A stretch of DNA of 35,332 nt from assembly GCA_017524595.1 (NCBI GenBank), contig JAFXVI010000098.1:1-35332 (forward strand), written 5' to 3'. This DNA is from Lachnospiraceae bacterium (lineage in GTDB: Bacteria; Bacillota; Clostridia; Lachnospirales; Lachnospiraceae). Positions 13,150 to 23,125 of this stretch are shown piece after piece. The number at the start of each line of letters is the position of its first letter. The stretch's first letter is position 1. The notes under the pieces were generated by a model. It was not told where the DNA came from. It did no database searches and was given only the letters and a program-made list of their open reading frames with translations. The translations under genes were made by a program, and so were the position numbers.

Positions 13150-15612
13150 TTACCACAGCTTTTCGGGATACTCTCCCTTATCCTTAAGCGCCTTTATAGA
13201 TCCCATTACAAACGGCTTGTCTTCCTTATAGGTAACCCCAAACCATCTGTCTTTTGACTTAAGTACCCTGACAGTTGCCTTGTCTGCCGTAAGCAGCTCA
13301 TCTACAACTCCCGGCAGATAGCACTCAGCCTTCTGCGGATTACCGGGTACAACTTCCTTAAAGAACCTCTCAAAGCTCTTACCTGCTTCATCGATAAAGC
13401 TCTTTGAAAATCCCCACATATTCATAGATACGATGCTGTTTTCGTCTATGTCTGTATAAGTAGCCCCGTTATCTTCAGTAAAAGCAGCTCCTGCAGCAGT
13501 CTTTTCAATATGGGTACGCTCAACTATATCCGTAAGATATCCGTCCTTATCCGTAGTACATAAACCGCGGGATACATATCCGTTCTCGGTAAGTGTATTC
13601 TTAAGTTCATAACCTACCATCGCATATCTGTATTTCTCATCATCACTGCTGCCTGAGAGAAAATCATATATGATCTTAAACGCTTCCCTTCCATAGAAAT
13701 CATCCGCGTTTATAACGGCGAAAGGACCGTTTATCAGCTTACGGGCACTAAGCACCGCATGAGCTGTTCCCCAAGGCTTTACCCTTCCTTCAGGGATCTC
13801 ACATCCCGCCGGTATATCAGATAATTCCTGGAATGCATATTCAACTTCAATATGGTCTTTTACAACATCACCTATACAGGTGCGGAAATCCTGTTCATTT
13901 TCCTTCTTGATAACGAATACGACTTTTGAAAAGCCTGCCCGTATAGCATCATATATCGAAAAATCAATTATCTTGTTTCCCTGTTCATCCACCGGATCTA
14001 TCTGCTTAAGACCTCCGTACCTTGATCCCATGCCCGCTGCCATTATCACAAGAGTGGGACACGGGGACGGTTCTTTTGTCCTCACATCCTGCTCTGTTCC
14101 GGGTTTTATATCATGTGAGGACAAAAGAACCGTCCCCATTGTCCCAGCTACAGGTTTTCTTCTCGGTTCACTGGTAAGATCTACTCCAAGCTTCTTGAAT
14201 GTCTTGATATCTACCTCTGCCAGCATAACGGACGTATGCACCTGACAGCCCTTTAAAGCATGAAGCTGTTCCATTGCCGCCCTTGCATTTTTATCATTTA
14301 CGGCTGACATCGCAAGAGCTATCAATATCTCGTCAGTATGCAGCCTGGGATTCCTTCCTCCAAGATACTCCGTTTTGAGTGTCTGGATAGGTTCGATCGC
14401 TTCCCTTGAGATAACATGGAGCTTATGATCGATACCTGCAAGCTCCTTAAGCGCATTAAGCAAAAGCGCTGCAGACGCACCCAAAAGATCCGTTGTCTTT
14501 GATGTTATGATCCTGCCGTCCTGAAGCTCGATCGCGGCACAGGGAACGCCCAGATCTTCAGCCCTTTTGTTCGCGGCTACCGTGACTTTGCGGTCATCTG
14601 TATTAATGCCCGCCTGCTTCATGATAAGCTCTATCTTAAGTACTTCATTCTCTGAAGCCTTCTCATTAACGACACCGTTTAGCGTAGTATAATATCTGCG
14701 GATTATCTCCATCCGCGAAGCCTCACAGCATACGTCGTCATCTATTATACAGTTCCCCGCCATATTAACACCCATATCCGTGGGAGACTTATACGGATTG
14801 TACCCGTATATCCCTTCAAATATAGAATTAAGCACGGGGAATATCTCTATATCCCTGTTGTAATTGACCGTGGTCTGACCATAAGCTTCCAGATGGAACG
14901 GATCGATCATGTTTACATCATTAAGATCCGCTGTTGCGGCCTCATAAGCCAGATTAACCGGATGCTTAAGAGGTATGTTCCATATAGGGAAAGTCTCAAA
15001 CTTGGCATATCCGGCCTTAATACCCCTCTTATTTTCATGATAGAGCTGTGAAAGACAGGTTGCCATCTTTCCGCTTCCGGGTCCCGGTGCCGTAACTACA
15101 ACAAGAGGTCTTGACGTCTCAATATAGTCATTCTTACCGAAACCGTCGTCACTCGCGATCAGTGCAACATTTGACGGATAGCCTTCTATCCTGTAATGGT
15201 GATATACCTTGTAGCCCCTTTTCTCCATACGGGCTTCAAATGCTTCCGCAGCCCCCTGACCTTTAAACTGGGTTAGCACAACACTGCCCACATACAGGCC
15301 TCTGCTCTCGAATTCCCTTATAAGACGGATCACATCTTCATCATAGGTGATCCCCAGATCGCCCCTTATCTTGTTCTTCTCTATATCGTTTGAATTGATA
15401 ACTAAGATTATCTCAACCCTGTCTGACAGCTTCATGAGCATACGAAGCTTGCTGTCAGGCTCAAATCCCGGAAGCACCCGTGAGGCGTGATAATCGTCAA
15501 ACAGCTTGCCTCCGAATTCAAGGTACAGCTTATCACCGAACTTGCTTATCCTCTCCCTTATATGCTCCGACTGCATCTTAAGATATTTTTCGTTATCAAA
15601 TCCTGTTTTCAT
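13150..15612 (-). CDS. DUF1846 protein fused in frame to a sugar-phosphate nucleotidyltransferase through a REP-encoded linker
   Basis: The 820-residue ORF starts at the ATG 15612 (MKTGFDNEKYLKMQSEHIRE, the normal DUF1846 start; GGGAG eight bases upstream); a longer start nine codons earlier is unlikely. Residues 1 to about 489 form an almost complete DUF1846 protein (usually about 500 residues) with a P-loop-like GPGSGK at 177-182; its function is unknown. Residues 490-519 are encoded by the REP-like inverted repeat at 14055-14146. Residues 520-820 are a complete nucleotidyltransferase of about 300 residues, with PTLVIMAAGMGSRYGG (GxGxR loop, 524-534) and the NADDFYG metal-binding segment; it would activate a sugar phosphate with an NTP. 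The two parts are normally separate genes. Either a real fusion arose by repeat insertion, or two products arise by internal initiation. The reading frame is seen directly. Confidence 0.9.
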   Translation of the reverse strand: MKTGFDNEKYLKMQSEHIRERISKFGDKLYLEFGGKLFDDYHASRVLPGFEPDSKLRMLMKLSDRVEIILVINSNDIEKNKIRGDLGITYDEDVIRLIREFESRGLYVGSVVLTQFKGQGAAEAFEARMEKRGYKVYHHYRIEGYPSNVALIASDDGFGKNDYIETSRPLVVVTAPGPGSGKMATCLSQLYHENKRGIKAGYAKFETFPIWNIPLKHPVNLAYEAATADLNDVNMIDPFHLEAYGQTTVNYNRDIEIFPVLNSIFEGIYGYNPYKSPTDMGVNMAGNCIIDDDVCCEASRMEIIRRYYTTLNGVVNEKASENEVLKIELIMKQAGINTDDRKVTVAANKRAEDLGVPCAAIELQDGRIITSKTTDLLGASAALLLNALKELAGIDHKLHVISREAIEPIQTLKTEYLGGRNPRLHTDEILIALAMSAVNDKNARAAMEQLHALKGCQVHTSVMLAEVDIKTFKKLGVDLTSEPRRKPVAGTMGTVLLSSHDIKPGTEQDVRTKEPSPCPTLVIMAAGMGSRYGGLKQIDPVDEQGNKIIDFSIYDAIRAGFSKVVFVIKKENEQDFRTCIGDVVKDHIEVEYAFQELSDIPAGCEIPEGRVKPWGTAHAVLSARKLINGPFAVINADDFYGREAFKIIYDFLSGSSDDEKYRYAMVGYELKNTLTENGYVSRGLCTTDKDGYLTDIVERTHIEKTAAGAAFTEDNGATYTDIDENSIVSMNMWGFSKSFIDEAGKSFERFFKEVVPGNPQKAECYLPGVVDELLTADKATVRVLKSKDRWFGVTYKEDKPFVMGSIKALKDKGEYPEKLW
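14055..14146. repeat. REP-like inverted repeat element, copy 1, inside the fused ORF
   Basis: Arms of 33 and 34 bases (14055-14087 and 14113-14146) are complementary except for one small indel; they contain GGGGACGGTTCTTTTGTCC. The loop is 25 bases. Each arm can also fold on itself through GGGACA and TGTCCC, as REP units do. A second copy with the same arms but a different loop is at 23021-23125. The length of 92 bases replaces the gene junction and keeps the reading frame open. No transposase gene is in the window; mobilisation in trans by a REP-associated Y1 transposase is an inference. Confidence 0.9.
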
Positions 15613-15656
15613 TCCTAATACTCCCGATATTAAAATCACTCCGTATTATCTGTACA

Positions 15657-23020: not shown

Positions 23021-23125
23021 TGGGACACGGGGACGGTTCTTTTGTCCCACTATATTATTCCCAAAGACGATAAACATCACACCCGGTGTGACATGGTGGG
23101 ACAAAAGAACCGTCCCCGTGTCCCA
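23021..23125. repeat. REP-like inverted repeat element, copy 2, between permease and GH3 genes
   Basis: Perfect 30-base arms (23021-23050 and 23096-23125) with the same GGGGACGGTTCTTTTGTCC core as the element at 14055. The 45-base centre has its own hairpin (TCACAC/GTGTGA). The right edge is one base from the permease stop codon (23127-23129) and the left edge is 20 bases before the GH3 start. As RNA it would form a long hairpin in the middle of the operon, which could protect upstream mRNA or reduce GH3 and xylB expression. Confidence 0.92.

Follow-up and report, generated by a model that had tools for sequence, protein, structure and literature searches.

A REPIN lies at the junction of a single-frame DUF1846-nucleotidyltransferase gene in a Lachnospiraceae genome

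Introduction

The Rickettsia palindromic elements (RPEs) are repeats of about 150 bp found in Rickettsia. As described in the accessible text of PMC10969869, they are short palindromes that lie in frame within unrelated proteins. A second system is REPIN/RAYT (TnpA-REP), in which, in the available portions of the literature including the report that defines the REPIN (PMC3116915), inverted REP doublets form a long hairpin, the copies are dispersed, and the RAYT gene is flanked by REPs. REP doublets with a GTAG/CGTC tag have also been described inside genes, where they code for 20-30 in-frame residues; the accessible sections of that report proposed that they are located in linkers or loops and found many of them in DNA replication and repair genes (PMC3733652). 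In those sections, the doublets were described within one gene, and a fusion of two genes is unmentioned.

Here we describe a REPIN that is read in frame at the junction between two genes in a Lachnospiraceae genome. As in REPIN/RAYT, inverted REP doublets of its family form a long hairpin, copies are dispersed and a RAYT gene is flanked by REPs. In contrast to that system, as far as its available description goes, several copies lie inside proteins and one lies at a gene-gene junction. Additionally, the GTAG/CGTC tag was not seen beside the arm in the rows inspected by eye, and the bases flanking the arm varied between copies. The family also resembles the intragenic GTAG/CGTC REPs in having in-frame doublets, and the many copies reported for those in replication and repair genes, in the sections available, are comparable to the MutS2 cases presented below. 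The REPIN works in the same manner as an RPE, although the nearest named protein records are from Lachnospiraceae MAGs, several of them labeled rumen, and the likeness, drawn from part of the RPE literature, is one of description. We found no report of a REP that fused two genes in the literature, as judged by titles, abstract openings and passages with few subscription papers covered, and the arm sequence had no literature match. Since intragenic REPs are already in print and no two-gene REP fusion was found, the kind of element is known, while its role at a junction looks new.

Results and discussion

Overall architecture of the fused reading frame

The window, which is the whole stretch of DNA analyzed, comprises positions 1 to 35,332 of the forward strand of contig C38 (JAFXVI010000098.1, 35,332 nucleotides). 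It belongs to genome G000 (GCA_017524595.1), a MAG of 1.73 Mb that is divided into 110 contigs and is 59.86% complete. The ORF list, the translation and Pfam revealed a fused ORF on the reverse strand (13150..15639), which is free of stops from DUF1846 across a repeat into a nucleotidyltransferase. Its product has 829 residues when counted from a GTG and 820 residues when counted from the ATG at 15612. In the 829-residue product, Pfam placed DUF1846 (PF08903) at residues 13-343, DUF1846_C (PF20921) at residues 348-494 and NTP_transferase (PF00483) at residues 531-747. The DUF1846 part (residues 13-494; 14158..15603, reverse strand) also matched NF010184 with 808 bits. The nucleotidyltransferase part (13153..14055, reverse strand) was complete except for its native start and first few codons. 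Both domains were complete within the single open frame, which, judging from the sequence, would give rise to an 820-residue fused protein in the cell.

The repeat search and the fold revealed that the junction is occupied by a REPIN at 14055..14146, composed of two inverted REP arms (14055-14087 and 14113-14146) and a 25-nt spacer (14088-14112). The inner arms (14063-14087 and 14113-14137) are each 25 nt long and 100% complementary, and the outer parts extend to 14055 and 14146. When folded as RNA, the element reached -60.6 kcal/mol with a z of -10.98, and 0 of 200 shuffles were as good; a hairpin of -60 kcal/mol might slow the ribosome. The element codes for the 30-residue linker GTMGTVLLSSHDIKPGTEQDVRTKEPSPCP (14056..14145, reverse strand), corresponding to residues 499-528 of 829, or 490-519 of 820. 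With the 829-residue numbering, the linker falls between the end of DUF1846_C at 494 and the start of NTP_transferase at 531. The initial annotation had described a 92-nt inverted repeat at the junction of the two genes, which was supported by the arms and the fold, and an open frame without a stop that encodes 30 linker residues at 490-519 of 820, with which both the translation and Pfam agreed. The REP arm also contains an ATG (14137..14139, reverse strand) in the nucleotidyltransferase frame, a candidate internal start from which some separate enzyme could be made; inspection by eye revealed no good Shine-Dalgarno sequence before it.

A second copy of the REPIN in the window, also found by the repeat search and the fold, is intergenic (23021..23125), lying after the stop of one gene and before the start of the next, and it folded at -70.3. 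It shares an identical 27-nt arm with the junction REPIN and is therefore of the same family, whereas the 25-nt spacer of the junction REPIN is not common to both. The shared arm, the fold and the gene boundaries are consistent with the earlier assignment of both copies to one REP class.

As for the native sequence at the junction of G000, the DUF1846 end, stop, ribosome site, start and first codons were all absent. Approximately 8 nt remained between the conserved end of DUF1846 and the element, which directly abuts the first β-strand of the nucleotidyltransferase. The loss of the native stop, gap and start makes this arrangement a replacement and not a clean insertion.

Soundness of the fused protein

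We compared the substitution rates of both parts with those of relatives. In the nucleotidyltransferase, dN was 0.119 for G000-G003 versus 0.131 for G035-G003, and 0.134 for G000-G036 versus 0.135 for G035-G036; the values from G000 were no higher than those between relatives and thus gave no sign of decay. In DUF1846, dN to G003 was slightly higher from G000 (0.059) than from G035 (0.046), and dN to G036 was about equal (0.070 and 0.071, respectively). At synonymous sites, G000 and its relatives have diverged almost to saturation (pS 0.64-0.87), so that a recent event would leave no visible trace there and the order of the steps is unreadable from them.

In the AlphaFold model (mean pLDDT 75.1, pTM 0.49), residues 485-515 of 820 had a pLDDT below 50 and contained no secondary structure, and the REPIN-coded linker is accordingly predicted to be unstructured. 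Prediction was good for the nucleotidyltransferase and for the C-terminal part of DUF1846 but poor in places within the N-terminal half of DUF1846, and we therefore used the linker alone from this model, in whose input alignment 13-15 N-terminal residues were misplaced in 16 nucleotidyltransferase-only rows.

The REP family and its transposase

A search of G000 with a 19-mer at up to two mismatches revealed 30 sites, versus 0 for the reversed control, which indicates that the family did not arise by chance. The arm GGACRRAAGAACCGTCCC was counted 31 times in G000, 18 in G018, 5 in G002, 2 each in G035 and G014, and once in G024. It had a count of 0 in the remaining 31 of the 37 genus genomes, as did the reversed control. 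The family is thus dispersed and multi-copy, with arms in 6 of 37 genomes. After grouping, the 31 arms of G000 formed 24 sites, one of which is native ligA sequence.

G000 contains one Y1 transposase gene (C9:4073-4408; PF01797, E 9.7e-12) with an HTH at its C-terminus, and REPs of the family lie on both sides of it. This is how a RAYT is organized with its REPs, and the RAYT presumably moved the junction REPIN. No Y1_Tnp match was found in G002, though that genome has REPs. We also observed that the REP downstream of the RAYT gene is translated as the transposase's own C-terminal tail. In addition, a REP-like arm, GGGACAAAAGAACCGTCCCCCTGTCCC, was present on a viral contig (L383:191-209), and related REPs may thus exist outside the genus.

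Comparison of the gene pair with relatives

Adjacent and co-oriented DUF1846-nucleotidyltransferase pairs were present in 29 of the 37 genus genomes, 31 pairs in all, as G014 and G022 have two each. The pair was not found in the matched or fetched stretches of G002, G005, G007, G021, G013, G015, G031 and G008, where contig ends may hide some. In 29 of the 31 pairs, the genes are separate: a stop follows the DUF1846 match after 6-39 nt, the two matches lie 17-119 nt apart, and the nucleotidyltransferase has its own ATG, as had been predicted for other genomes from the window. The searched form of the REP arm was absent from the gap in each of these 29 pairs. The other two pairs are fused, that of G000 with the REPIN and that of G019 without it. 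The G019 fusion has complete domains in a single open frame by Pfam, an 8-residue linker and no repeat.

In the DUF1846 tree (35 rows), G000 was placed beside G024 with weak support (81/70), and G019 was placed beside G004. The two fused genomes belong to different clades, and well-supported branches of the tree force two changes. The initial annotation had expected relatives without the repeat to be unfused; G019 alone breaks this expectation, from another clade than that of G000. The repeat is therefore not needed for such a fusion, which says nothing against its role in G000. In a family scan of 397 genomes (341 matched at 1e-60), a single match across both domains was found only in G000 among the matches listed, although the scan is no census because a fusion of the G019 type would show as two matches. 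The long DUF1846 frames of G323, G132, G312 and G253 had no nucleotidyltransferase match within the fetched stretch.

Some minor differences were present among the separate genes. Approximately 19 conserved residues near the N-terminus of the G024 nucleotidyltransferase (L040) are missing or out of frame. The G009 nucleotidyltransferase holds an extra segment, which we considered as a REP and rejected because it looks low-complexity.

One base in the outer arm

Continuity of the fused frame hinges on a single extra base that the junction copy has in its outer arm, at 14138..14140. We compared 58 arms from six genomes, 38 of which had a readable outer form: 30 had CGT, six had CAT, one had GT and one had CATT. 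CATT was confined to the junction copy, whose outer arm exceeds the remaining 37 readable ones by one base. The 20 arms with a different outer form include one in G002 (L199) that likewise looks a base longer than its neighbors. The neighboring frame at the junction stops in the REPIN loop. Because the longer arm is unique among the readable forms and the neighboring frame stops, the fusion hangs on a single base of a single MAG of about 60% completeness. The fusion may be a second step that followed the arrival of the REPIN, and it may not exist if the base is an error.

Origin of the fusion

The probable explanation, in our view, is that a REPIN of the RAYT-associated family forms the junction, that the stop and start were lost, and that the one frame open through the element gives one two-domain chain. 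The REPIN would have come to occupy the short gap between the co-oriented DUF1846 and nucleotidyltransferase genes in the G000 lineage, and the native stop, ribosome-binding site, start and first codons would have been lost, a loss that we infer the arrival of the REPIN to have caused. At the length of the junction copy, one REPIN frame has no stop and matches the frames of both neighboring genes, so that the ribosome would translate the hairpin into a flexible linker within a single chain of two domains. The initial annotation had likewise attributed the fusion to the repeat. The REP-class element, its place at the fusion point and its coding of the linker all held, whereas its causal part is suggested for G000 and does not extend to G019, which is fused without a repeat.

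It is unlikely, but worth weighing, that two genes are still present, with DUF1846 stopping in the loop, the nucleotidyltransferase starting in the arm, and the extra arm base either arising from faulty assembly or sequencing or representing a rare allele. The longer spacing in only one of 38 readable arms would fit such an arrangement, as would the loop stop of the neighboring frame and the arm ATG in the nucleotidyltransferase frame. However, the extra base lies in a non-homopolymer stretch, where a short-read consensus seldom carries an indel error; the assembly gives 820 codons without interruption, and the L199 arm suggests that arm length does vary. We consider it less probable still that an ordinary deletion of the stop-start segment made the fusion, as in G019, and that the REPIN entered the resulting linker later or as a bystander. 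Linkers that already exist can take up REPs, as found for FeoA-FeoB in G035 and G024, and the short linker of G019 demonstrates that the same pair can be joined without a repeat, but no fused relative is near G000, with 29 of 31 pairs separate and G019 in another clade, and no remnant of a native stop, start or short linker flanks the element beyond approximately 8 nt. Finally, because the arms are multi-copy, a chimeric assembly at the repeat might have joined two loci; this is very improbable, as DUF1846 and the nucleotidyltransferase are natural neighbors in 28 other members of the genus and the second REPIN in the window lacks the 25-nt spacer present here.

In-frame REPs in other genes

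We found 46 REP sites in the six genomes, of which at least nine, the junction included, are in frame inside Pfam-supported genes; the nine become eight if the FeoAB site of G035 and G024 is counted as one event, and the spanning ORFs were partly run through Pfam. In G000, MutS2 (L212) contains an in-frame REPIN directly ahead of the MSSS domain. MutS2 of G018 (L215) contains an in-frame REPIN in the same linker by alignment, with the second arm in a different frame. A sigma factor of G000 contains a REP between regions 2 and 4, where it is approximately 12 residues longer than most of 12 aligned relatives. In G018, an in-frame REP separates the two domains of a DUF4910-HTH_47 protein (L208, C22), and another follows the domain of a proton antiporter-type protein. 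The GH2 enzyme of G018 has an in-frame REP inside the Pfam match, unlike the other in-frame copies, which are outside or between matches.

The linker between FeoA and FeoB contains REPs only in G035 (L320; by Pfam) and G024 (L321; via 98% identity), and in G035 it consists of two REP units in direct order. As at the junction, a REP codes for an interdomain linker. In 27 of the 28 genus genomes with a match across both FeoA and FeoB, no stop was found inside the match, and G034 had one TGA. Since FeoAB is a single chain throughout the genus, this chain predates its REPs, in contrast to what is proposed for the junction, and we rejected it as a second REP-made fusion.

Taken as a whole, these sites lead us to propose, tentatively and as a matter on which the balance falls slightly short of even, that the REPIN family is a recurrent donor of interdomain linkers in the genus and that in G000 it replaced a stop, gap and start to give a two-domain protein in one step, or in two if a one-base change followed its arrival. 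If this is true, REPINs provide a route from bacterial operon neighbors to fused proteins. The fusion of operon neighbors has mostly been inferred from end states, and here the connecting DNA is still recognizable as a mobile hairpin. The relatives with separate genes reveal the starting state, and the repeat-free fusion of the same pair in G019 offers a natural comparison. The other in-frame copies, mostly outside Pfam domains, form a set of linker insertions with which the effects of REP-coded peptides could be tested.

We also made minor observations on individual genes. The MutS2 linkers of G032, G009 and G027 contain stretches that, by eye, resemble decayed copies. In G018, region 2 of the orthologue (L260) of the sigma factor that bears the REP contains an in-frame TAG. 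In LigA of G009, G032 and G036 (L312, L313 and L314, respectively), the OB-fold and zinc-finger parts are separated by an in-frame insertion of low complexity, and these extra segments were rejected as REPs because of their low-complexity appearance. A putative REP in an amylase tail on C82, near the contig end, was set aside as unsure, as were REPs directly upstream of the start of genes that we take to be PurN and peptidyl-tRNA hydrolase. We rejected ligA as a REP insertion because its DTGTVLSSSPT segment belongs to the native protein and has the usual length in 29 other aligned rows; only its DNA resembles the arm. The corresponding stretch of ligA in G035 and G014 (L283 and L284) matched that of G000 (L282) at 26 of 30 bases, and the likeness to the arm is either a coincidence or a hint, from the sequence, that ligA is a possible source of the REP.
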